DNA from: Sphaerochaeta sp.
Lineage (GTDB): Bacteria; Spirochaetota; Spirochaetia; Sphaerochaetales; Sphaerochaetaceae
Direction of reading: 5' to 3'
NCBI GenBank assembly: GCA_018399495.1
Contig: JAGYOG010000006.1
Location: 1-64,000 of the forward strand
DNA: 64,000 bases
The notes beneath the pieces were generated by a model that saw nothing but the letters and a program-made list of their open reading frames with translations, searched no databases and was not told the origin of the DNA. A program made the position numbers and the translations under genes. This document shows positions 3,472-16,119 of the stretch, one piece after another. Position 1 is the first letter of the stretch; each line of letters opens with the position of its first letter.

Positions 3472-3681
3472 TTAGTAGTTCTTTGAGCCGTTCAATTTAC
3501 GCACCTTTTTCATCTGCTTGCGTGCAAGCGCTTTCTTTTTCCTGTTAAGGATGGTGGAGGGCTTCTCAAAGTACTCCCGCTTTTTCCATTCGCGGATAAT
3601 ACCCTCTTTTTCAACCATGCGCTTAAAACGCTTGATGGACTTCTCAAGAGGTTCATTGTCATCTACTTTTACAAATGCCAT
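3472..3681 (-). CDS. rpsU: 30S ribosomal protein bS21
   Basis: The 69-residue, very basic protein matches bS21 along its length: [18 protein letters not shown], then [19 protein letters not shown] and a Lys/Arg-rich tail. bS21 sits on the 30S platform and aids start-codon selection at the anti-Shine-Dalgarno region. A strong purine-rich ribosome-binding site (GGAAGGGGGG) precedes the ATG at 3681. It is monocistronic with its own terminator. The island's left repeat lies about 80 bases upstream, so before the insertion rpsU probably followed recJ directly. Confidence 0.95.
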
Positions 3682-3734: not shown

Positions 3735-3762
3735 ATTGCAATAAATTCACACTGCATGTCAA
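3735..3762 (-). promoter_or_regulatory. Probable rpsU promoter at the island junction
   Basis: On the minus strand a consensus TTGACA (3757-3762) is 16 bases from TGCAAT (3735-3740). The -35 touches the first base of the 30-bp direct repeat, so the island boundary abuts but does not remove this promoter. Confidence 0.4.
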
Positions 3763-3791
3763 GTACACCCAAGAGATTATTCCGATCGCTT
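3762..3791. repeat. Left copy of 30-bp direct repeat (putative attL)
   Basis: The 30 bases starting AGTACACCCAAGAG and ending CCGATCGCTT are identical to 13185-13214. There they span the last four codons and the stop of recJ plus 15 downstream bases. The left copy is therefore a stranded fragment of the recJ 3' end. The two copies bound a 9.4-kb segment of unrelated content, as att sites or a target duplication would. Confidence 0.8.
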
Positions 3792-3829
3792 AACATAAAA
3801 TGGTTCATCCATATTCTTTGGATGAATGA

Positions 3830-5605
3830 ATGCTCAGAATTAGTTTGACAGCACAATATCTGTTTGGTTATAGTAGACTAAAGTTTGCCATGAAAAAACC
3901 TCGACAAAATTCCACAGCCTTACGCGTAATCCTCTACCTAATCTTTGGTGTGAGTACCATTATACCTATATTTTGCATCATTATTATCATTCCATCCTAT
4001 TTTCGAACACAAATGAACAACGAAAACTTGGAAAATATTGATGGTAATCTTATGCTTATCTCGGAACGAATATTGACGTATTTATCTGATATACAACAAA
4101 TAAATGGCCTTGCCTATAGTGAGCCTTTATTCGTGAATCTGTTGACCCAAGACACTGATACTCCCCAAGTGATTGACCTATCCCACGAAAAGCTCTTTCT
4201 AAACTCCATAAAAGTATTGAAGAACGATATCAAGAGTATTATTGTGTTTGCCCAAAATGATAATATCGTCTATTTTCACCGAAATGTGAATGCAAAATTG
4301 AAGACTGGATATGATTTTTCTTCCTTGATGCAGCATAGCACTATGGAGGATATCAACTTTATTGGCGCCCATAACCCCGATTATTTTGCGAATGATGGGA
4401 GATCCATGGTATTCTCTATGGTTCGGACGATTCGTCAACCGTATATGGAAGACAGCCTGGGGACAATACTCATTGACGCCGATAGTACTATGTTTGAGAA
4501 CATCTTTCGTTCTATTAACATGAAAGAGGGTATAGTTTCTCTTTTAATGGACAACGCAGGACAAGTACTCTATTCCTCCCGTCAAGTAAGCGACAATGTT
4601 CTATCTTCAATCAGGCAGGAGCAAAAGAAGATCGATATAGGAGAGATACAATACAAAGTCCTGCAGAAAAATGTTCCAATCGGAGACTGGAAGATTGTTG
4701 TCTTGGTTTCAGACTATGCCATCAACAGAAGCATGCGACTGGTTTATCTAGTGGGAATATTGACCTCATTGATTACGATTATCTTTACTTATGTTGTTTT
4801 TAGCTTCCTAAGTTCCCACTTATTGCTAAAACCCATCAAGGATATGGCATTGGTACTCAAGCAAGTGGAACAGGGAAATCTGGAGGTAAAATTCAAATCA
4901 TCCTACCATAACGAAATCACCCAACTGGGGGAGAATATCAATAGAATGATAAGCAAGCTAAAGATACTCATCGACCAAGAATATAAGATGGCCATAAGTC
5001 AGAAACAAGCGGAATACAGGGCCCTACAAGCACGGATTAAACCACATTTTCTCTATAACACGCTTAATTGTCTTATCGGACTGAACCGCCTTGGTGATAG
5101 GGAAAAACTGGAGAATGCAATCATCGATATGACCAATATGATGCGTTATTCACTTTCCGATAGCAAACATGGAATGTCTACCATAAGGCAGGAAATTGAA
5201 TTCATCAGTGATTATGAACGGCTGGAAAAATTACGATTCGAAGAGAAACTCGATTTCACCCTTGAGGTTGACAACAGGGTATATGATGCAGTGATTCCGA
5301 AGATGTTGATTCAACCTTTAGTAGAGAATTCGATACTACACAATGTAGAGAAGTCTGACGAACCGGTAAAAGTAATCGTCACCGTATCCTATCTCGCTAA
5401 CGAGAACAAGATATCCATTGTTATTGAAGACCATGGATATGGTTTTGATACTGAAAAAGAAAATATTGTCGGTACAGGTTTGCGTAATGTCCAGGAACGT
5501 ATCCGATATTGGAACAAGGATGGCTCCTATACTATCAATTCTATCATAGGAAAAGGTACCGTAATCGAAATTCTGATTCCAATGCTACAGGATCAAAGCT
5601 CATGA
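3830..5605 (+). CDS. Sensor histidine kinase, YesM/LytS type
   Basis: The protein is a membrane sensor kinase of the His_kinase/HATPase_c class used by YesM-YesN systems. It has a membrane segment near residues 31-57, an extracytoplasmic sensing region to about 300, a second membrane segment (about 303-327), a HAMP linker, and the phosphoacceptor motif IKPHFLYNTLN with His406. The ATPase domain follows, with PLVENSILHN (N-box), DHGYGFD and GTGLRNVQERI. Its stop overlaps the regulator's start as ATGA. Start is uncertain: the ATG at 3830 has a weak GGA, and the ATG at 3890 (MKKPRQNS) gives a more usual short N-terminus. It probably senses the ligand or binding protein of the downstream TRAP system. 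Confidence 0.88.
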   Translation: MLRISLTAQYLFGYSRLKFAMKKPRQNSTALRVILYLIFGVSTIIPIFCIIIIIPSYFRTQMNNENLENIDGNLMLISERILTYLSDIQQINGLAYSEPLFVNLLTQDTDTPQVIDLSHEKLFLNSIKVLKNDIKSIIVFAQNDNIVYFHRNVNAKLKTGYDFSSLMQHSTMEDINFIGAHNPDYFANDGRSMVFSMVRTIRQPYMEDSLGTILIDADSTMFENIFRSINMKEGIVSLLMDNAGQVLYSSRQVSDNVLSSIRQEQKKIDIGEIQYKVLQKNVPIGDWKIVVLVSDYAINRSMRLVYLVGILTSLITIIFTYVVFSFLSSHLLLKPIKDMALVLKQVEQGNLEVKFKSSYHNEITQLGENINRMISKLKILIDQEYKMAISQKQAEYRALQARIKPHFLYNTLNCLIGLNRLGDREKLENAIIDMTNMMRYSLSDSKHGMSTIRQEIEFISDYERLEKLRFEEKLDFTLEVDNRVYDAVIPKMLIQPLVENSILHNVEKSDEPVKVIVTVSYLANENKISIVIEDHGYGFDTEKENIVGTGLRNVQERIRYWNKDGSYTINSIIGKGTVIEILIPMLQDQSS

Positions 5606-7032
5606 GAATATTGATAGCTGACGATGAACATTTGGCAAGAGTAACGGTACTTTCAATGCTCAATGAAATTGATAACACCTTTGAAGTCCTAGAGGTGAGA
5701 AATGGAAAGGACCTGATTAAGAAGGCTTTGGTATTTATCCCTCATGTCATTATTGTTGATATCCAGATGCCTTTGGTAAACGGGCTTGATGCAATGAAGC
5801 GAGTTAAGGACAGATTGCCCATGACAAAATGGATTATCTTGACCGGTTTTGCCCAATTCGCTTATGCAAAAGAAGCTGTTATTCTTCATGCATACAACTA
5901 TCTTCTGAAACCAATCCCATTCAAACACCTGAATGACATCATACTACAGGCCAATACAGAGATTATTCAAGAAATTGGTGCAGTAAATGCTGCATTCGAG
6001 CAGCGTTTACAAGCATTTTTACAACTTCCTGATCAGAGCAGTCTGGAGCTTTCATACTTTCAAGTGGCACTGATCTGTATAGATGAAAACGAGGATGGCC
6101 TGCCATGCGCTTTGAGCCATATGATTACAAATGCACAAAAAATTCTAGTCGATGACTTTGAGATTTTGGCAAGAGGAGCTGTCATCCCGTTGGATGAAAA
6201 AGTTTGTTGCATAATTGGAGGTTCCCAGGATCGGAACATACTTGAGAATCTGTTTGTTCCCGCCTTGTGGAAAATTCATCACCGTTTCTCTGCCTCTCGA
6301 TGGGTTGTATTTGATGCCGTCCAAAAAGGTTCAGGTACAATTATCTCTTCGCTGGACAGATGCAAGGAAGCCTGTTTCCTCAAAGCCTTTTTGTCTCAGA
6401 AAGAGTGCCTCGATGTATTATCCGTCCAATTATTGCCAAATACCGTAATTCTGGTTTCTATTGCCAACAGTCTGCAACAAGCATGGCTCAACAAATGCCA
6501 AGGGCGCGTCCTTTATGCAAAAGAATTAATAGAGTCTGCAGTTGTCAAATCAAGAGAACTACCGGAAATCAATAAAAATGAGCTATACCATTTACTCTGT
6601 TATTTGCATCGATTTGTACAGTCGAAATACCCTCTGTCTCCAGATGAGGTCTCTTATCAACGAATCAACATGGATTTGGATGATTTTCTACATTTGTTGT
6701 ATGACAACTCCTCAACACAGGTAAACACAATAATCAGTTATATAAAAAACCACTACAGTGAGGCGATTAGTGTAAAAGGCATTGCTTCAATATTACGGAT
6801 TTCCCCCAATTACCTCAGTGCGAAGTTTAGACAGGAAACAGGAAAGCGTTTTGTAGAATACGTATCTGAAATAAGAATAGACCAAGCAAAATTGCGGCTC
6901 ACTCATACGCAGATGCAAATTAACGAAATCTCCAATGCCGTGGGTATCCATGATGTACGTTATTTTTCTGATCTGTTTAGAAAGTATGAAAGTTGTACCC
7001 CTTCAGAATACCGTGCAAGGACAACTAAGTAG
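5602..7032 (+). CDS. Response regulator with AraC-type DNA-binding domain, YesN type
   Basis: The protein has 476 residues. The N-terminal receiver domain has the acidic pair D7-D8, phosphoacceptor D53 (VDIQMPLVNGLDAM) and K103 (YLLKPIPF). A long linker of no clear family follows. The last roughly 100 residues hold two AraC-type helix-turn-helix units (SVKGIASILRISPNYLSAKF and INEISNAVGIHDVRYFSDLF). The start chosen is the ATG overlapping the kinase stop (ATGA); a longer frame from 5509 would run inside the kinase gene. Partner of the preceding kinase, and likely activator of the TRAP and transketolase genes that follow at 7120. Confidence 0.92.
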   Translation: MRILIADDEHLARVTVLSMLNEIDNTFEVLEVRNGKDLIKKALVFIPHVIIVDIQMPLVNGLDAMKRVKDRLPMTKWIILTGFAQFAYAKEAVILHAYNYLLKPIPFKHLNDIILQANTEIIQEIGAVNAAFEQRLQAFLQLPDQSSLELSYFQVALICIDENEDGLPCALSHMITNAQKILVDDFEILARGAVIPLDEKVCCIIGGSQDRNILENLFVPALWKIHHRFSASRWVVFDAVQKGSGTIISSLDRCKEACFLKAFLSQKECLDVLSVQLLPNTVILVSIANSLQQAWLNKCQGRVLYAKELIESAVVKSRELPEINKNELYHLLCYLHRFVQSKYPLSPDEVSYQRINMDLDDFLHLLYDNSSTQVNTIISYIKNHYSEAISVKGIASILRISPNYLSAKFRQETGKRFVEYVSEIRIDQAKLRLTHTQMQINEISNAVGIHDVRYFSDLFRKYESCTPSEYRARTTK

Positions 7033-7119
7033 TTTTACCCCATACTATTAATAGAAAATATACGCTATATTTATGAATTACGCCCTTTTATCATACTAAT
7101 ATCTTTTAAGGAGGTCACT

Positions 7120-8118
7120 ATGATGAAAGGAAAAAAATCTTTGGTATTGGGATTGTTGTTCATCTTTGCAATGACATCGATGTTCGCACAAGGGAAACAG
7201 GAGAAAATTAACCTGAAGCTAGGCTATAGTTCTCCCGAGTCAAATCCTTGGCACGTGTGTGCCCAAGAATTGGCCCAGTATGTCAGTGAAAATACTGACG
7301 GAAACATAACGGTAAATCTTTTCCCTGCAGAGGTGTTGGGTTCTGACAAACAAATGGCAGAAATGCTTAAAATGGGAACACTGGACATGCATATCTGCCC
7401 ACAGGGTGTTGCTTCTGACTATGAACCGAAAATCGCGGCTATTGGGCTTCCTTTTCTTTTCGATTCCAACGAACAGGCTGCACGGTTGCTTGACGGTCCT
7501 ATTGGAGCAGAGTTGGTAAACGACTTACCGGCAAAGCAGAAGATAAGAGCCCTCGCATATTGGGAAAACGGTATGAGGCAGACAACAAACAGTCTTCGTC
7601 CGATTGTACAGCCTTCTGATTTGGAAGGAATGAAAATCCGCACTCCTAATGACAAAGTGACTATCAGTATCTATAAGGCACTAGGATCGAACCCTGCTCC
7701 TTTGGCGTACAACGAGTTGTACATGGCCTTATCGCAGGGTGTCTTCGACGGGCAGGAGAATCCAGTAGTAAATATTCATGCTTCCAAACTCTATGAGGTC
7801 CAGAAATACTTGAGTTTTACTAACCACAAGTATGAGTGCAAGATCTTTATGATCAGTGAATCCACTTGGAACAAGTTGACCCCGGAATACCAGAAGGTAA
7901 TTAGCGATGCAGCTAAGAAGTTTGCTGTTGAAAACCGGGCAATGTTTGCCGAACAGGACAAGACCCTCCGTGATGATCTGATTTCTAGGGGTATGAAATT
8001 GAATACACCCGATTTAAAACCATTCAGGGCAGCAACCGCTTCTGTCTACGATGAGTGGAAGGAAACTTTGGGTGCAGACCTACTCAATAGGATTGTTGAA
8101 TCCGCACAGGCTAAGTAG
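7120..8118 (+). CDS. dctP: TRAP transporter solute-binding protein
   Basis: Secreted DctP-family protein of 332 residues. A signal peptide (about 1-23, KKSLVLGLLFIFAMTSMFAQ) precedes the mature domain, which shows LKLGYSSPESNPWH, VNLFPAEVLGSDKQMAEMLK and the conserved GMKIRTPNDKVTISIYKALG segment that holds the carboxylate-binding Arg of the family. It would bind an organic acid or related ligand in the periplasm and hand it to DctQM. AAGGAGG lies just before the ATG; a second ATG follows at once. A hairpin after the stop separates it from dctQ. The ligand cannot be deduced. Confidence 0.95.
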   Translation: MMKGKKSLVLGLLFIFAMTSMFAQGKQEKINLKLGYSSPESNPWHVCAQELAQYVSENTDGNITVNLFPAEVLGSDKQMAEMLKMGTLDMHICPQGVASDYEPKIAAIGLPFLFDSNEQAARLLDGPIGAELVNDLPAKQKIRALAYWENGMRQTTNSLRPIVQPSDLEGMKIRTPNDKVTISIYKALGSNPAPLAYNELYMALSQGVFDGQENPVVNIHASKLYEVQKYLSFTNHKYECKIFMISESTWNKLTPEYQKVISDAAKKFAVENRAMFAEQDKTLRDDLISRGMKLNTPDLKPFRAATASVYDEWKETLGADLLNRIVESAQAK

Positions 8119-8132
8119 CAAATAGAGATTGG

Positions 8133-8171
8133 GGGAAAGATAGACAGGTTTGCCTGCTGTCTTTCCCTTTT
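8133..8171 (+). terminator. Intergenic hairpin between dctP and dctQ
   Basis: GGGAAAGATAGACAGG pairs imperfectly with CCTGCTGTCTTTCCC across a 4-base loop and is followed by TTTT. It can act as a partial terminator or 3'-stabiliser giving more dctP than dctQM mRNA. The dctQ gene has its own GGAGG site downstream. Confidence 0.6.
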
Positions 8172-8189
8172 CTACAGAAGGAGGAATGC

Positions 8190-8696
8190 ATGAAAAAAAC
8201 TCTGGATATTCTAAGTGAGAAACTCTGTACTATATGCAAAGAATTGGCGGCAATATTATTGGGTATTCTTGCTGTATTCATATTCGCTGGGGTAATTGCT
8301 CGCTATGTTTTCAATAACCCTTTTGTATGGCTTTATGAATTCACCTTGATCTTGTTCTCCTGGATGGTTTTCCTGGGAATAAGTGTGGCAGTAAAGAATG
8401 GGGAGAATGTCACCTTAAATCTTCTCGGAACATTGCCTGCAAAACTCAACCTTATGTTCGTAGTATTAACTAATATTTGTACTATATATTTTTTCTTTTT
8501 ACTTACAAAAGAAGGAATTGTTATTATAAAAAGTACTAGTACAGAGATGTATAACACCATCAATATCTCTACGGCTTGGTTCTATGTCCCTCTACCTGTT
8601 TGTGGCGTGATATCGCTTATCCATATGTTGGACGCGTATGTCGAAAAGAAAAATCCTTTGCAGAAAATTCAAACTGCTGCAATAGGGGAGGTATAG
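8190..8696 (+). CDS. dctQ: TRAP transporter small permease subunit
   Basis: The 168-residue membrane protein has four predicted membrane segments (about residues 16-38, 49-66, 88-110 and 128-150). The family region RYVFNNPFVWLYEFTLILFS is followed by FLGISVAVKNGENV. DctQ subunits help assemble the large permease subunit and couple to the binding protein; transport is driven by a sodium or proton gradient. GGAGG precedes the ATG and the stop is 3 bases before dctM. Confidence 0.93.
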   Translation: MKKTLDILSEKLCTICKELAAILLGILAVFIFAGVIARYVFNNPFVWLYEFTLILFSWMVFLGISVAVKNGENVTLNLLGTLPAKLNLMFVVLTNICTIYFFFLLTKEGIVIIKSTSTEMYNTINISTAWFYVPLPVCGVISLIHMLDAYVEKKNPLQKIQTAAIGEV

Positions 8697-8699
8697 ACC

Positions 8700-9974
8700 A
8701 TGGGTTGGGCACTTATAATATTTTTTTCTGCCTTATTGATTATCGGTGTACCTATTGCGGTAGCAATGGGATTCTCATCCATGCTTGTATGTCTGCTTTT
8801 CAATACATACCCGACGCTTGCCATAGTACATAGGCTAGCGGGAGGCATCGATAGCTATGTATTGATTTCTATCCCCTTCTTCATCCTTGCCGGTGAAATT
8901 ATGAATACTGGAGGAATTACTACAAGGATCTTCAACTTTGCCAACCTAGTGGTGGGAAAAGTCCCAGGAGGGATGGCCCATACCAATGTTCTGGCAAGTA
9001 TCATCTTTTCCGGGATGTCCGGATCGGCAGTTGCTGATACAGGAGGTCTTGGTATGATAGAGATGAAAGCCATGACCGACAAAGGATATGATAGGGAATT
9101 TTCTGCGGCTGTGACCTGCGCGTCTGCAACCATAGGCCCAATCATTCCTCCGAGCATACCTATGATTGTCTATGGAGCAATGGCGGAAGTGTCTGTCGGG
9201 GCATTATTTTTGGGAGGCGTTCTTCCTGGGCTCTTGATGGGGGTGAGCGTGATGATAATCATATTTTTTATCTCAAAGAAACGTAAATACCCTACAAGGG
9301 AACATATTGTATTTCAGGAAGGGCTGGAGATCTGCAGACAAGCTATACTCCCTCTCCTAACTCCCATTATTGTCATTGGTGGTATTCTAACTGGTATCGT
9401 GACACCAACCGAGGCTGCTATCATTGCTTCATTCTACGCATTCTTCTTGAGCATTTACTACAAGGAGATAACGTTAGCGAAGTTGATAAGAATGTTGGAG
9501 AATACGGCAATAAACAGTGGAACGATTCTCTTTATCATTGCATCGGCTACTTCCTTTTCTTGGGTGCTTTCGGTCGAAGGTATTCCCCAACGGGTTACTG
9601 AATTTATCCTTTCCCTTACACAGCAACCCTTTGTTATTCTAATTCTCTTGAACATCATTCTTTTGATTATGGGTATGTTCATTGAGGGTTTGTCCATTCT
9701 GACAATTATCGTGCCGTTCTTGCTTCCACTAGTGAATGCAGTGGGAATCGATCCTGTACACATGGGTGTAATGGTTGTCTTGAACGTAATGATAGGACTT
9801 TCGACCCCGCCTGTCGGGATGTCCCTGTTCGTCATCAATAAAATTGCTAATGTGGAGATGAGGAATTTATATAAGGAGATAATGCCTTTGATCATACCAC
9901 TGATCATTGTCTTACTTCTGGTAACGTATGTGCCACAGATATCAGTTTTTCTCCCTCAGCTTCTGATGAACTAA
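8700..9974 (+). CDS. dctM: TRAP transporter large permease subunit
   Basis: The 424-residue integral membrane protein matches the DctM/YiaN family. Signatures include IPFFILAGEIMNTGGITTRIF, GMAHTNVLASIIFSGMSGSA, the PIIPPSIPMIVYGAM loop and GLSTPPVGMSLFV, with about 12 membrane spans. This subunit forms the transport channel. It begins 3 bases after dctQ and is followed after 25 bases by the split transketolase genes, so uptake and metabolism appear co-transcribed. Confidence 0.95.
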   Translation: MGWALIIFFSALLIIGVPIAVAMGFSSMLVCLLFNTYPTLAIVHRLAGGIDSYVLISIPFFILAGEIMNTGGITTRIFNFANLVVGKVPGGMAHTNVLASIIFSGMSGSAVADTGGLGMIEMKAMTDKGYDREFSAAVTCASATIGPIIPPSIPMIVYGAMAEVSVGALFLGGVLPGLLMGVSVMIIIFFISKKRKYPTREHIVFQEGLEICRQAILPLLTPIIVIGGILTGIVTPTEAAIIASFYAFFLSIYYKEITLAKLIRMLENTAINSGTILFIIASATSFSWVLSVEGIPQRVTEFILSLTQQPFVILILLNIILLIMGMFIEGLSILTIIVPFLLPLVNAVGIDPVHMGVMVVLNVMIGLSTPPVGMSLFVINKIANVEMRNLYKEIMPLIIPLIIVLLLVTYVPQISVFLPQLLMN

Positions 9975-9999
9975 AATTATTATTTACAAGAGGACTTAT

Positions 10000-10842
10000 A
10001 TGGAAGAAAAAGAGAAAGAAAAGCTCAGTGATATTGCAAAACACGTCAGGGAAATAATTCTCACCATGATCTACGAGGCGCAATCTGGCCATCCAGGTGG
10101 ATCCCTATCTGTCGCTGACATTATGACGGTGTTGTATTTTAAACAATTGCAAATCGACCCGAAAAATCCTAAATGGAACGAACGCGATAGATTTGTATTG
10201 AGCAAGGGCCATGCTTGCCCTGCTTGGTACTCGTGTTTGCAACTCAGAGGATTTTTCGATGAGAAACATATCCATACTTTCAGACGAATGGATAGTATTT
10301 TGCAGGGGCATCCTGATATGAATAAGACTCCCGGTGTCGATATGACTACAGGATCCTTGGGCATGGGCGCAGCCGCCGCTGTGGGAATGGCTTTGGAAGC
10401 CAAGCTTGAAGGTTCTCCTCGTCGTGTCTATACCGTAGTGGGTGACGGAGAGTTGAACGAGGGAGTGATCTGGGAGGTTATGCAATCGTCGGTAAAATTC
10501 AAACTGGATAATTTTTGCATGATTGTTGATCGAAATGGACTGCAACTCGATGGTCCTACGAATGCTGTAATGCCAATCCATGATCTTACTCAGATTATCG
10601 AAGGCTTCGGATGGTACGTCCAAGAGATTGACGGTCATTCAATACAAGAAATCGATAAAGCTTGTTCAAACGCCAAGCAAAAGAAAGGCATTCCGAGTTG
10701 CATCATTGCAAATACGGTGAAAGGAAAGGGTGTCTCTTGTATGGAAAACCAATTGAAGTGGCACGGTAGGGCACCTTCGACTGAAGAGTACAACCAAGCT
10801 GTACGTGAAATCCGCAATGGAGGCTGTCGATGTATACATTAG
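10000..10842 (+). CDS. Transketolase, N-terminal (TPP-binding) subunit
   Basis: The 280-residue protein equals the first domain of transketolase. It has GHPGGSLSVAD, SKGHACPAWYS, and the thiamine-diphosphate motif beginning GDGELNEGVIWEVMQ and ending about 28 residues later at Asn (VDRNGLQ). Split transketolases work as heterotetramers with the following gene product, moving a two-carbon unit from a ketose to an aldose. Known split relatives serve pentose metabolism, apulose phosphate or sulfofructose cleavage; location beside a TRAP importer hints at a specialised substrate. The gene overlaps the next by 13 bases. Confidence 0.93.
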   Translation: MEEKEKEKLSDIAKHVREIILTMIYEAQSGHPGGSLSVADIMTVLYFKQLQIDPKNPKWNERDRFVLSKGHACPAWYSCLQLRGFFDEKHIHTFRRMDSILQGHPDMNKTPGVDMTTGSLGMGAAAAVGMALEAKLEGSPRRVYTVVGDGELNEGVIWEVMQSSVKFKLDNFCMIVDRNGLQLDGPTNAVMPIHDLTQIIEGFGWYVQEIDGHSIQEIDKACSNAKQKKGIPSCIIANTVKGKGVSCMENQLKWHGRAPSTEEYNQAVREIRNGGCRCIH

Positions 10843-11786
10843 AAAAAGCAAAAGAACCAACAAGAAAGGCGTTTGGGATACGTTTGAAGGAATATGGTGC
10901 AATCGATTCAGATTTTGTTGTCTTTGAAGCAGATATTGGGGCTTCCACCTCTTCTATATTGTTTGGTAATGAGTTTCCTAAACGATACTTCAATATGGGA
11001 ATTGCAGAATTGGGAATGACTGACGCCGCAGCAGGAATGGCTGCAGGGGGACGCACTGTCTTTGTTTCATCCTATGGTATCTTTTTGTCAACCCGTGCGC
11101 TGGAAGCAATCCGCACCTGTATCTGTTATCCGAACTTGAATGTAAAATTCATGGGTTCCCACGGTGGTTTGACCGCTGCGATTGATGGAGTCACTCATCA
11201 AGCTACTGAGGATATTGCGAATATTTGTACATTACCAAACATGAAGATGGCAGTACCCTGTGATACGAATTCTGCACGTAAACTGTTTGATCTTGCCATA
11301 CATACAGCAGGACCTTTCTATGTCCGGCTATTAAGGGATGCCTACTACGAAATCTATGACGAGGGCACGGAGTTTTCTCTTGGTGGCAGCCATGTCCTGC
11401 GGGAAGGGAAGGACATTACCATTGGAACGTATGGGGATATGGTCTTTCAGGCGCTTGCTGCTGCAAAAAGATTGGCTGAACAAGGGATTGAAGCAGAAGT
11501 AATCGATTTTTACAGCATCAAACCGTTTGATTATGCTAGGTTGGTTGCTTCAATCCAGAAGACCGGGAAATTGTTCGTAATCGAAAACCATCAGAGAAGA
11601 AACGGCTTGGGGTATGAAATTGCCGATTATCTTATTACCAATCGCTATTACATTCTATATAAACATATAGGGCTTGCTGATACTTTCGCAGAAAGTGGAC
11701 GATATCAGGAAATTCTCGGCAAATATCATCTGGATGGTTCAGCCATCGAAGAAGAGGTCAAGAAAATGATCGATACCTGTCGATGA
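10830..11786 (+). CDS. Transketolase, C-terminal (pyrimidine-binding) subunit
   Basis: The 318-residue protein supplies the second and third transketolase domains. The catalytic Glu region NMGIAELGMTDAAAGMAAGG, the FMGSHGGLTAAIDGVTHQA segment, then DTNSARKLFDLAI and a C-terminal domain with VIDFYSIKPFDY are visible. It would activate TPP bound by the N-terminal subunit. Translation is probably coupled through the 13-base overlap. No other sugar gene follows within the island, so a complete pathway would need enzymes encoded elsewhere. Confidence 0.93.
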   Translation: MYTLEKAKEPTRKAFGIRLKEYGAIDSDFVVFEADIGASTSSILFGNEFPKRYFNMGIAELGMTDAAAGMAAGGRTVFVSSYGIFLSTRALEAIRTCICYPNLNVKFMGSHGGLTAAIDGVTHQATEDIANICTLPNMKMAVPCDTNSARKLFDLAIHTAGPFYVRLLRDAYYEIYDEGTEFSLGGSHVLREGKDITIGTYGDMVFQALAAAKRLAEQGIEAEVIDFYSIKPFDYARLVASIQKTGKLFVIENHQRRNGLGYEIADYLITNRYYILYKHIGLADTFAESGRYQEILGKYHLDGSAIEEEVKKMIDTCR

Positions 11787-12115
11787 CTCTAGATGTTCGC
11801 TTCAAGTACAATGGCATATCAGCTGAAAGACCAATGAGCAAGGGACTGACAGACAATCTTTTTGTGCATGGGGCCATTCAGGGGTGTATGTTCTGCTATT
11901 GACTGTGTTTTGTCAATAAAAGCTAGGTATCCCCTCTTCTTGTTTCTCAGTGGGAAGCGATATTGTCTTATGTAAGCGGAAGGGACTTTGTCCTAATGGC
12001 TGTCTCTGAAGAAACAATCATTGATATGTAATAGTGTTCGGAGAAAATAAAGATGGGGTTGGTTCCCAAAGCTTAGTTCACCAAAGAACCAACACCGTCA
12101 AAAGGCGTTTACAGT
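11787..12115. other. Non-coding stretch before the transposase remnant
   Basis: I see no convincing gene here. The only structure is an inverted repeat (GTTGGTTC 12058-12065, GAACCAAC 12086-12093) just before the transposase remnant. It could be a hairpin of the element or a leftover terminator of the transketolase operon. Confidence 0.5.
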
Positions 12116-12947
12116 ATGTATTGGGATGACGAGTCTATGCAAGCGATCAGGGATGTGGTCGAAGGTAAAACCAATAAATTCAGGGCTTCCCTGAAGATTG
12201 GCTGTGTTCTTAGGACTGTATAACGGAAAGTCAGGGAGTACAAGACCAAGGGAGAGCAGTGCTTTGGGCACGGGAACAAGGGAAATGCGCCCTCCAACAA
12301 GATAGATTTGGATAGTGTTATTTATTCAAACATACGAATAAAAGATCAAGCGGGCCAACCAGACACTTCAGGGCATGATTCCCCACCGCCTTACCATGGA
12401 AAGGATCACTAGCTTTGATGAGGCGAACGAATATTTCCAGTCCAAGCTGATGCCGTACTTCAACGGGACGTTCGGCTATGGCTACGATTGGGTAGTTGGG
12501 TACAAGAGGTCTGTACAGTCCGTATTTGAGCCGTGTACAACCGGGCAGATCAGGACCCCCCTGTCAGTCCTGTGCGAGCGCGTAGTCAACAAGGGCAGCT
12601 CCATCAGCCTGAACAAGGTCTATATGGCCCTGTTGGACGAAAAGGGGAAACGCATCACTCTTCCTTACCATACAAAGGTCACCGTCGCCAAGCTTCTGGA
12701 CGGATTACTCTTCGCTACAACGAAAAATGATAGGTGCTATGCATTGGAACCCATTCCTGAACGGCATGCATTCTCACCTGAGATAGATACTGAGGACATG
12801 AAACCGAAGAAAAAGGCAAAGAGGCCGAAAATTCTGGCAAGCCATCCCTGGAGCTTTGAAAAACAGATGAAGTTCAGGGAAAACGATGCCCTGATGAAAA
12901 AGCTCGAACCGTGCTACAAGAGTCGGGACGAGTATCGATACGCCTAA
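12116..12947 (+). pseudogene. ISNCY-type transposase remnant
   Basis: The first part (12116-12335) reads AIRDVVEGKTNKFRASLKIG and then, past an in-frame TAA at 12221-12223, RKVREYKTKGEQCFGHGNKG, the N-terminal helix-turn-helix and linker typical of ISNCY-family transposases. The central catalytic domain is missing. A second frame, open from 12342, starts KIKRANQTLQGMIPHRLTME and continues DEANEYFQSKLMPYFN, the C-terminal part of the same family, then a beta-rich tail (LNKVYMALLDEKGKRITLPY) and a Lys-rich end. So the gene has a stop, a large internal deletion and a frame change, and cannot make transposase. Family assignment is from recalled motifs. Confidence 0.75.
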
Positions 12948-13184
12948 AGCTTACGCTTAGATCAAATTGAATTCCTCTCTAGCAGCGTTCCAGCAGGAAC
13001 GCCATCGTCCATGCCTTCAGAAGACACTTTTTTCCATACAGCGGATTCATTTTTAGCAAATCTTAAAAAATCAACAAAAAAAGTCGAAAAAACAGAAAAG
13101 AATTCTTTTGCATTTAGGATGATTGTTAAAAAATCTTTTTGACAAGAGAGAAAAACTTAAAACACATTATCGCATCCGCTTGAC
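12948..13184. other. AT-rich spacer at the right end of the island
   Basis: No gene seen. It contains a perfect 7-bp stem with 4-base loop (12985-13002, GCGTTCC/GGAACGC) after the transposase remnant and a run of A-rich sequence (about 13060-13155) ending at the right direct repeat. As minus-strand RNA the T-rich tracts could serve as a recJ terminator region. Confidence 0.4.
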
Positions 13185-13214
13185 AGTACACCCAAGAGAT
13201 TATTCCGATCGCTT
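13185..13214. repeat. Right copy of 30-bp direct repeat (putative attR) in the recJ 3' end
   Basis: Identical over 30 bases to 3762-3791. Bases 13200-13214 encode the last four recJ residues (KRSE) and the stop; 13185-13199 are downstream. The island therefore restored an intact recJ end, as integrases that target gene 3' ends do. Confidence 0.8.
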
Positions 13215-15332
13215 TAGGTCCATGATGGTTAATTGCAAACTTTCCTGGTTGCGGAAATAATTTCTTCCTAATCGGAAGGCCACATTGACACGATCACCCT
13301 TGTCGAAATCACTTCCTACACGGTCTCCAGCACGCCAGAACAATGCAGGCCATTTATATTGGCCGAACGCCAGAGTCAGCTTAACATGCTGCACACTACC
13401 ACCTTTGTTATTCATGAACTGGATGTTTTCGATTTGGGCTCCCTCCATCATCAACATCAACGGAGGATTTTTCTCCCCATACGGCTCGAAGAATTCCACT
13501 ACCTTTATAATACCTGGTTTCATATAGGTTTCGGGAAGCGTTACATCAATGACCAACTCATCTTCCAAATCATCTATCATGCAATCCATGGTATCGATTT
13601 CATCTGCTACCCGCTTCTTGAATTCAGAAAGGTGCTCCACATCCATAGAGAACCCACCTGCGCAGGTATGTCCCCCAAAGTCAAGGAAGAGATCACTAAA
13701 ACGGGAGAGAAACTCACGAGCATCAAAATACTCAGGGCTACGCATTGATGCGGAAACCCGACTCTCATCTACAGTCGCAAGGACGATTGCCGGAGCATTG
13801 TACTGCCGTAGCAATCGACTTGCCATTAACCCTGTAATTCCCCTTGAGAGGGTGCTATCCTCAACCACGACCAGCTTGCTACCGGAACTCTCAAAGCTCT
13901 CTTGCGCACTACTCTTCATCCGTTCCCATGCGTCTTCTCCAAGCTTCTGCCGCTCCTTGTTCAGTTTAATCAACTCACCAGCAAGGGATTCGGCCTCGTA
14001 TAAATCTTCTGCAAGCAACATTTCCAAGGCAACTGTGGGTTTCCCCATTCGCCCTGAGGCATTGATTACCGGACTGATCTGCCAGGATATATCACTAGTG
14101 GAAAGTTGTTTGCCCATCAGGTTCTGCATGGAAAAAAGTGGAAGTAGATTTTGTCTACGACCTTGAGCAAGCACTTTGAGCCCACGTTTGACAAGAATCC
14201 TGTTCTCATTCTCCATCGGCATCAAGTCAGCAACCGTTCCTATGGCAACCAAGTCAAGTATCGTTTCATACTCAGCATCCAAGGAGGGATAACGCTTCAT
14301 ACAATAGGCAATGAACAGCGTATAGAGTACTTGTAGTTCATCCTTTCCATGGGGTGAATACCGTATGGCTCTACTGATATTGGAGAGGGCAAACAGCCCC
14401 TTTCCTTTTACCACAGGGAGGACCGCTTCCATTTCGCTGCGCATATCTATGAGATGGATATCAATTTTCTTTCCAAATGCCTGCCTTAATTGGGCAAGTT
14501 CTGCTGCTGCATCAAGTACCATAATGGGAAGCCCGGCAGAGAGGAACTCCAACGCTTTGCTCTTGCTTACATCAATAAGGCCAGGATTGATTTCCTCAAT
14601 CACCTGATCCACAACCAGGAGATTATCAATCCTCATAGCCTGTATAATCACCGTGTCATGACCAGGCTGTGTATGCAACAGGATGCACTCCTCCCGATAG
14701 AAATCTGTTTTACTGAATCTAAGTGCCCAAAGCACCTTTGCCACAACTCCACATCCTGCAAGATGCTCGAAAGGATATCCGCATCCTGGTACTTTCGGGT
14801 CGATGATGGCCAAGGCTGGCGGTAAGCTTTCTCCACTAATATGATGATCCAAGACAATGGTATCAATTCCCATGCTGTGCGCATGAGCAATCTCATCAAA
14901 GTTTGATATACCGCAGTCCACGGTAATGATTAGGGTCACATCCTGCTGGGAAACCAAGTCAACACCATCCATGGTGAGCCCATACGGTTCATCACCATTG
15001 GGAAGCTTATAGCTGACCTCAATTCCCATGGCTCGTAATTCTTGCACCAACAAAGCAGTACTGGTAATGCCATCTACATCACGATCTCCGAATACACAAA
15101 CCTTCTCCCCTTCAGTGACTGCTTCATTGATGCGGTCAACCACTTCTTCCATATCATCAAAAAGAAACGGATTATGGAGATAGGAAAGCTCACTCTCCAA
15201 ATAAAACTTAATCTGATCTCGGCTGGTTAATCCCCTCCTTGCTAGGATTGAGGAACTAATAACATCCAAACCATACTGTTCATGCAGACGGCGGATATCT
15301 TGGGACGAAACGGGAGACTTTTTCCAAACCAT
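13200..15332 (-). CDS. recJ: Single-stranded-DNA-specific exonuclease RecJ
   Basis: RecJ degrades single-stranded DNA 5' to 3' in recombination and repair. The 710-residue protein has the DHH-family motifs VFGDRDVDGITSTALL, LIITVDCGIS and TIVLDHHISG, then the DHHA1 region with SGRMGKP and GGHTCAGGFS, and a C-terminal OB-like domain. About 125 extra residues separate the GCGVVAKVLWAL and LDLVAIGTVADLMP segments that are nearly adjacent in most RecJ proteins. The ATG at 15332 is 31 bases after recO; a longer frame would overlap recO. Its last codons lie in the 30-bp repeat. Confidence 0.93.
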   Translation of the reverse strand: MVWKKSPVSSQDIRRLHEQYGLDVISSSILARRGLTSRDQIKFYLESELSYLHNPFLFDDMEEVVDRINEAVTEGEKVCVFGDRDVDGITSTALLVQELRAMGIEVSYKLPNGDEPYGLTMDGVDLVSQQDVTLIITVDCGISNFDEIAHAHSMGIDTIVLDHHISGESLPPALAIIDPKVPGCGYPFEHLAGCGVVAKVLWALRFSKTDFYREECILLHTQPGHDTVIIQAMRIDNLLVVDQVIEEINPGLIDVSKSKALEFLSAGLPIMVLDAAAELAQLRQAFGKKIDIHLIDMRSEMEAVLPVVKGKGLFALSNISRAIRYSPHGKDELQVLYTLFIAYCMKRYPSLDAEYETILDLVAIGTVADLMPMENENRILVKRGLKVLAQGRRQNLLPLFSMQNLMGKQLSTSDISWQISPVINASGRMGKPTVALEMLLAEDLYEAESLAGELIKLNKERQKLGEDAWERMKSSAQESFESSGSKLVVVEDSTLSRGITGLMASRLLRQYNAPAIVLATVDESRVSASMRSPEYFDAREFLSRFSDLFLDFGGHTCAGGFSMDVEHLSEFKKRVADEIDTMDCMIDDLEDELVIDVTLPETYMKPGIIKVVEFFEPYGEKNPPLMLMMEGAQIENIQFMNNKGGSVQHVKLTLAFGQYKWPALFWRAGDRVGSDFDKGDRVNVAFRLGRNYFRNQESLQLTIMDLKRSE

Positions 15333-15363
15333 ATATAACAACCTTTCATATAAGTATACACAT

Positions 15364-16119
15364 TTATATACTCGCCGCCTCCCATAAAATGGGAGAGGAG
15401 AGCGTCTTGAGCATCTGCTGACCAATCACCTGTGCGTACCTAAGCAAATATCGCTTGATACGTAGTGTGGCAGCATCGCTGAGAGGGACCTGGAGACTCT
15501 GTTCGAAGCTCATGGAGGAAGTCACCTCAAGATACCTGCGAGCTCCAGGGGGGAGCAAGAAATCTGCATCGAGACTGGCGCAAGCCTCACAACAGTGAGC
15601 AAGCAGACTCGTTGAAAAACTCACAACTTCAGTGCTCCCATAGGGACGACCACAGATGGGGCACCGCGAATAATCAGCACGGAGGCCAACCAAATCACTG
15701 AGCTGATGCACAAACTGGATAATAACCAAGTCTGTCTTCTGGGGCATGTTACTCAGATGGTCCAATGCCTGACTGAGCAATCGATATTCATCAGTGCTTT
15801 CACCACCATGTACCCTTAGGAGCAACTCACAGAAAAACAAGGCTGCATAGGTAGGATGTAGAGCCTCCCGTAATTCATCGTGGGTAGCGATCACCGTAAC
15901 ATCCTTGAGCGTATAATCCTTCTTGACTGGATTGTAATACAAAAAGAACTGCCCATCGGTAAATACCTCAGCTTTGACCGATTTAAGAGACTTCTGGGCT
16001 CCATAAATCAACACATCGATAATACCAAAGTCCACAGTCAGCAACTTCAGCCGCCTATTCAGTTGGCCGTACCGTTGACTATGAAGTACAATGGCCAAAG
16101 ACGATACGTTACGTTCCAT
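15364..16119 (-). CDS. recO: DNA repair protein RecO
   Basis: RecO loads RecA with RecR on SSB-coated DNA. The 251-residue protein has the N-terminal OB fold (SSLAIVLHSQRYGQLNRRLK, LTVDFGIIDVLIYGAQ) and a helical C-terminal domain with a four-cysteine zinc site (CPICG and later CCEAC). The ATG at 16119 was chosen because GGAGGG precedes it; a longer frame exists upstream without a good site. It is the first gene of a recO-recJ pair and diverges from the DUF4105 gene. Confidence 0.9.
   Translation of the reverse strand: MERNVSSLAIVLHSQRYGQLNRRLKLLTVDFGIIDVLIYGAQKSLKSVKAEVFTDGQFFLYYNPVKKDYTLKDVTVIATHDELREALHPTYAALFFCELLLRVHGGESTDEYRLLSQALDHLSNMPQKTDLVIIQFVHQLSDLVGLRADYSRCPICGRPYGSTEVVSFSTSLLAHCCEACASLDADFLLPPGARRYLEVTSSMSFEQSLQVPLSDAATLRIKRYLLRYAQVIGQQMLKTLSSPILWEAASI

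Follow-up and report, generated by a model that had tools for sequence, protein, structure and literature searches.

Introduction

The IS1202 family was defined by Harmer, Pong and Hall (2023; PMC10132070), who examined its long-duplication members and found no conserved target for them. The target-site duplications of this sub-group measure 16–28 bp, with 27 bp in IS1202 and 28 bp in ISSeq2 (PMC10132070). Insertion beside promoters is known from TnGBS, ISLre2 and ISKra4 (Mutator-like p-MULT 3 and 4), which insert 15–17 bp upstream of the −35 box of sigma-A promoters (Guerillot et al., 2014; PMC3942029).

Here, a 9.4-kb genomic island between recJ and rpsU was analyzed in a 64,000-nucleotide stretch of DNA (the window), which is part of contig C56 in a draft genome of 2.6 Mb and 92 contigs with Sphaerochaeta and Sphaerochaetaceae as its named relatives. 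We propose, with a probability of about 0.85, that the island was inserted by transposition through a DDE transposase of the IS1202 family (ISNCY, long-duplication group). The features of the island and its flanks are listed in Table 1.

Table 1. Features of the island and of the flanking recJ-rpsU region; positions are those of the window.
Feature	Position	Strand	Evidence
rpsU (ribosomal protein S21), gene with the targeted promoter	3475–3681	−	68 aa frame, 92–100% identical to genus relatives, beside recJ there
Predicted rpsU −35 box TTGACA, target edge	3757–3762	−	Same place in empty sites L004–L008; −10-like TGCAAT at spacer 16
Left copy of the 29-bp putative target-site duplication (−36 to −64 of rpsU)	3763–3791	.	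Repeat, empty-site and IS-copy comparisons
Inserted island (cargo and IS remnant)	3792–13185	+	Relatives lack it between recJ and rpsU
Histidine kinase (open frame from 3830)	3892–5605	+	Pfam His_kinase, HAMP, HATPase_c
AraC-type response regulator	5599–7032	+	Pfam Response_reg, HTH_18
TRAP transporter DctP, DctQ, DctM	7120–9974	+	Pfam DctP, DctQ, DctM; same order in G129 and G120
Transketolase, two subunits	10000–11786	+	Pfam Transketolase_N; Transket_pyr and Transketolase_C
TGTCAA and 28 bp immediately left of the IS, target layout of an earlier IS insertion	11911–11944	+	Layout as in other copies; no good −10
IS left terminal repeat	11945–11967	+	Top hit of the left-repeat profile within the window; 16 of 23 positions as in the right repeat
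Decayed IS1202-family transposase, internal deletion and stops	12042–12947	+	58–59% aa identity to the intact G011 transposase; NF033594
IS right terminal repeat, right boundary of the island	13163–13185	−	Top hit of the right-repeat profile within the window
Right copy of the 29-bp putative target-site duplication	13186–13214	.	Repeat and empty-site comparison
recJ, intact reading frame	13200–15425	−	Pfam DHH, DHHA1, RecJ_OB

The direct repeat and the empty site

A perfect direct repeat of 30 bp was present at 3762–3791 and 13185–13214, exactly where an earlier note on this DNA had placed it. A pair of identical 30-mers would be expected by chance ~1e-9 times in 64 kb. The possibility raised in that note, that the 30-mer is scattered elsewhere, found no support, as a genome-wide search detected no further copy even when three mismatches were allowed. 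Its account of the genes (a two-component system, a TRAP transporter, a split transketolase and a transposase remnant) was also correct, and the right copy indeed overlaps the last four codons and the stop of recJ. The duplication proper comprises 29 bp (3763–3791 and 13186–13214); the 30th base, an A, is common to both copies only because TGTCAA is the sequence of the target box and TTGACA that of the element's end.

The genes recJ and rpsU were adjacent in 18 of the 18 other genus genomes where both were located, each of which shows the empty site that the earlier note had predicted, and the gene order recO-recJ-rpsU-serA-serC was conserved around the site in relatives. In the five closest relatives (recJ 92–94% identical), the two genes were separated by a gap of 97 bp holding one copy of the repeat region. 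When the flanks in the window were joined on a single repeat copy, they were collinear with these five empty sites (L004–L008), in which the −35 box TTGACA occupied the corresponding place. The last recJ codons showed lineage-specific substitutions that were present in both repeat copies. Since both copies carry the lineage's own substitutions, we infer that the repeat is duplicated target DNA and that the insertion post-dates the split from the five closest relatives.

The left copy, previously taken for a useless fragment, is actually the native segment from −36 to −64 upstream of the rpsU −35 box. Insertion at the end of recJ with duplication of the target had also been suggested; the insertion and the duplication were borne out, but the target is better described as the rpsU promoter. 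The comparison with the empty sites showed that the upstream edge of the predicted −35 box was targeted, and that the 29 bp from −36 to −64 were duplicated.

A cargo contig wrongly joined to recJ-rpsU during assembly would give a similar picture, and in this draft of 92 contigs at least one contig (C22) ends within another IS copy. However, an identical stretch of 29 bp stands at the two junctions, exactly where this IS group would place it, and no other copy of the 30-mer exists, so that an artefact of this kind is extremely improbable.

The IS remnant and its family

The transposase remnant in the window matched the ISNCY transposase model NF033594 weakly, and it was 58–59% identical to the intact transposases (481–492 aa) of genomes G011 and G019. 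The intact G011 transposase passed the same model with 288.6 bits (cut-off, 250) and possesses the family's Q at +7 after the catalytic E. NCBIfam and Pfam assigned ISNCY and rve, and no Mutator (p-MULT) family. The G011 element is ~1,857 bp long, and its terminal repeats are TCTCATTAGGAAGTGATATTGTC and, for the right end read inward, TGTCAACCGTCAGGGAAAATGTC. With 1,241 bp against the 1,857 bp of an intact element, the window's IS is ~616 bp too short, and it contains stops. Shortened and interrupted in this way, it is dead, and the island is probably immobile by itself because its transposase has decayed since.

The two terminal repeats of the IS in the window were identical at 16 of 23 positions. 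Its right end carries TGT/ACA and its left end begins with TCT, the family hallmark being 5′-TGT and ACA-3′. Profiles of the terminal repeats, built from sequences that included the window's own repeats, gave their best match for the right repeat at 13163–13185; therefore, island and IS share their right end. The remnant is classified as a member of the IS1202 long-duplication sub-group, and the island as the product of such an element, not as a standard member.

A plasmid search with the remnant and a viral-contig search with the transposase gave no match. Pieces of a second IS, of the G011 type, were observed in the genome of the window itself, at G000:C12 ~133.0 kb (L267) and G000:C22:1-360 (L268). 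The C22 piece is cut at the contig edge, and an intact IS copy acting in trans may exist. Separately, Vibrio filamentous phage genomes of 9–13 kb (PQ189337.1, L231, and ~15 similar records) were seen to have an ISNCY-like transposase gene at one end, which suggests that these phages integrate by an IS-type enzyme rather than by XerCD.

Long duplications in related copies

Related copies of the IS were flanked by repeats of 30 and 28 bp in G011 and of ~29 and 28 bp in G019, which were mutually unrelated in sequence. The copy in G026, a genome of another family, had a flanking repeat of ~29 bp, again with a sequence of its own. At three related sites, the flanks joined on one repeat matched uninterrupted DNA in relatives with 90–100% identity; at the G011b site, only the left flank was matched in the empty-site search, and no full match was obtained. 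The 29 bp in the window and the 28–30 bp in G011 and G019 agree with the duplications of more than 15 bp that characterize the sub-group, and lengths of 29–30 bp are slightly above the published maximum of 28. In the two more distant relatives (n = 2), TGTCAT was found beside the duplication in G003 (L067), and no box was found in G006 (L071). Judged from these comparisons, the 30-bp repeat is a target-site duplication generated by a DDE transposase.

Integrase islands commonly show a direct repeat at the 3′ end of a gene, and the earlier note had compared the repeat to an att core whose integrase was lost or acted in trans. A tyrosine or serine recombinase acting on a 30-bp core in the 3′ end of recJ would explain a perfect repeat at a gene end and the absence of an intact mobility gene from the island. 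However, the right terminus of the island is an IS1202-family terminal repeat, and relatives of this IS duplicate unrelated sequences of the same length (28–30 bp). Moreover, no integrase family was detected among the island proteins, a third copy of the 30-mer is absent from the genome, and both copies in the window are explained as duplicated target instead of a core carried by the element. An att-type island was thus rejected on the IS end, the unrelated duplications and the absent integrase, and we regard it as very improbable.

Promoters as targets

Promoters were predicted from the sequence and scored by their matches to TTGACA and TATAAT (of 12) with a spacer of 16–18. In the orientation of the IS, TGTCAA or a variant (the complement of −35 TTGACA) preceded the left duplication copy, and a −10-like hexamer followed at spacer 17 in most copies, so that the promoter read away from the element. 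The rpsU −10 was weak by consensus (TGCAAT, spacer 16). In other copies, the neighbouring genes, recognized by reading the flanks by eye, were tRNA-Gly and feoA in G011, and infA and a CarD-like gene in G019.

Two insertion events of the window were counted among the 12 copies of the group, as were two copies on Enterococcus plasmids, of which one lies upstream of cfr(D), and the Sphaerochaeta copies that had suggested the promoter idea. All 12 scored at least 8/12 at the expected distance, vs. 3.3% of equal-sized windows in the same flanks, and the mean score was 9.67 vs. 5.25 (z 13.3; 0 of 20,000 resamplings). Any signal in the right flank of these copies was weak (z 2.1).

After the hypothesis had been formed, the analysis turned to further spirochaete groups of the family with long duplications. 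In G465, with duplications of 17–20 bp, 12 of 17 copies had a promoter in the right flank exactly after the duplication (z 12.0, compared with z 0.2 on the left), and several targets were TTGACA-N17-TATAAT or one change away from it. A promoter accompanied three of three copies in G306 (z 8.0) and two of six in G170 (z 4.0). In G402, promoters occurred on either side (z 5.0 right, 7.2 left), and 10 of 16 copies scored at least 8 on one side. Several sites of G170 and G402 had no predicted promoter. Some promoter-less copies looked rearranged and had no matching duplication, and others (for example, L199, L211, and L223) had a clean duplication and no promoter. Given such clean sites, the preference for predicted promoters is strong, not absolute.

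The IS right end likewise has TGTCAA as its six outermost bases, and the target motif could accordingly be a mimic of that end (TTGACA) instead of a promoter. However, the −10 hexamer alone was enriched at the fixed spacer of 17 (z 7.8, the value of the 12-copy group, and 8.5), and many G465 targets had a poor −35 (TTGCTT, TTGTAA) yet TATAAT at spacer 17. A mimic is therefore improbable. The comparisons showed instead that insertion in this group is directed to predicted sigma70-type promoters, which face away from the element and whose −35 box directly adjoins the duplication.

Two further observations were made among these sites. The target duplications of five G465 copies (L191, L194, L196, L198, and L203) share the start ATGAAGCAATTCG, which is part of a dispersed repeat upstream of promoters; this repeat is possibly a non-autonomous relative. 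The element upstream of cfr(D) in Enterococcus (L123, NZ_LR135354.1), which belongs to the IS1202 group, occurred in six more plasmid records (H2–H7). The −35 of a predicted promoter, TTTACT-N17-TAAAAT, is 28 bp away from it, and the element may bear on the movement or expression of cfr(D).

Cargo and left end of the island

The G+C content of the cargo was 41.3%, vs. 45.8% for the window. The best relatives of the transketolase C subunit in the other genus genomes searched were 59% identical, and the closest DctP in the class sample (87% identical) came from G129, a member of another genus of the family. The response regulator, DctPQM and transketolase of G129, and the histidine kinase, response regulator and DctPQM of G120, were arranged in the order of the island. 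By composition and relatives, the cargo looks foreign to the genus. Neither genome served to locate the native left border of the cargo: the G129 contig begins inside the response regulator, and the G120 kinase was 45% identical (aa) and showed no non-coding similarity. An inverted repeat, TTCATCCA-N7-TGGATGAA, was found at 3804–3826, in front of the promoter (TTGACA at 3845) of the histidine kinase; as a candidate operator, it might be bound by the response regulator that the island encodes.

An IS terminal repeat bounds the island on the right but not on the left. A profile search of the window found no terminal repeat in the element orientation at 3792, and no IS sequence was present there; a composite transposon, which would have another IS at this end, was rejected on these grounds. 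The left end of the IS itself, at 11945, is preceded by TGTCAA and 28 bp, the target layout of the group. As a side observation, the minus strand read from 3795 (3770–3795, four island bases and the duplication) resembles the right-repeat profile in the wrong orientation, ranking 3 of 127,948 positions.

We propose that an earlier insertion had placed the IS next to the cargo operon. The transposase would recognize a promoter, perhaps one occupied by RNA polymerase, whose role is a proposal. One strand would be joined at −35/−36 and the other approximately three helical turns upstream; joins this far apart would explain why the duplication is long and why the promoter and its upstream region are left intact. 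The cargo (8.2 kb) would have been carried by a one-ended or aberrant transposition in which the right end was genuine and the left end, at 3792, irregular, and the transposase would have decayed after the insertion of the island. A genuine right end with an irregular left end appears to be the simplest reading of the left-end history.

A serious rival proposes two steps: a simple IS inserted at rpsU and recombined with a second IS copy beside the cargo, for example on a circle, and the left hybrid IS was then lost by a deletion starting exactly at the terminus. It would account for an island left end without a terminal repeat and for the separate target context (TGTCAA and 28 bp) of the IS left end, and other IS pieces of the group do occur in the same genome. 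However, this history takes more steps, requires a deletion that ends at the exact IS boundary, and calls for a second copy of the window's IS variant, which was not found. We consider it unlikely, though far less so than the alternatives above, and prefer one-ended or aberrant transposition.

Comparison with known systems

No report of promoter targeting in the IS1202 family was found in the open literature, most subscription journals being outside the search. The promoter rule answers what the long-duplication members target, which the family-defining paper had left open, and suggests a testable reason for their odd duplication length. We lean toward the view that the long-duplication half of the family forms a second, independently evolved class of promoter-targeting bacterial transposons. 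These would insert at the upstream border of the −35 box, with RNA polymerase bound at the promoter as the probable guide, and the duplication length (~18 or 29 bp) would reflect where the complex exposes DNA. Such elements could bring whole operons to housekeeping promoters without breaking them. For cargo operons, this would be a low-cost route to settle near housekeeping genes, and it might be used as a tool for targeted insertion. The locus also cautions against taking every long direct repeat around an island for an att site.

The elements described here share with the long-duplication sub-group the NF033594 transposase with Q at +7 after E, imperfect terminal repeats of 23–26 bp, a right end with TGT/ACA, and long duplications (PMC10132070). 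They differ in the rule of the promoter −35 edge, in duplications of 28–30 bp, in a left end that begins with TCT/TAT rather than TGT, and in the 8.2-kb cargo. The ISAjo2 group (dif/pdif hunters) belongs to the same family, and its duplication likewise abuts a protein-binding site on the left side of the IS; however, it targets the XerC side of dif sites, and its duplication is 3–5 bp (PMC10132070). The transporter IS ISKpn21, ISKpn65, and ISRel10 are IS1202-family elements with passenger DNA (PMC10132070). They carry one extra ORF between proper ends, whereas here a whole operon lies outside the left end of the IS.

TnGBS, ISLre2, and ISKra4 resemble these elements in that their insertion, oriented or two-sided, keeps a fixed distance from a downstream promoter. 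In contrast, the transposases are unrelated, and in the IS1202 group the duplication itself (~18 or 29 bp) fills the gap to the −35 box. The IS1202-group elements work like TnGBS, ISLre2, and ISKra4 but are no members of that class; they would represent a second class of transposase that inserts next to promoters without destroying them. Promoter-upstream insertion itself is already known elsewhere, and it is the target rule that is newly seen for the IS1202 long-duplication sub-group.
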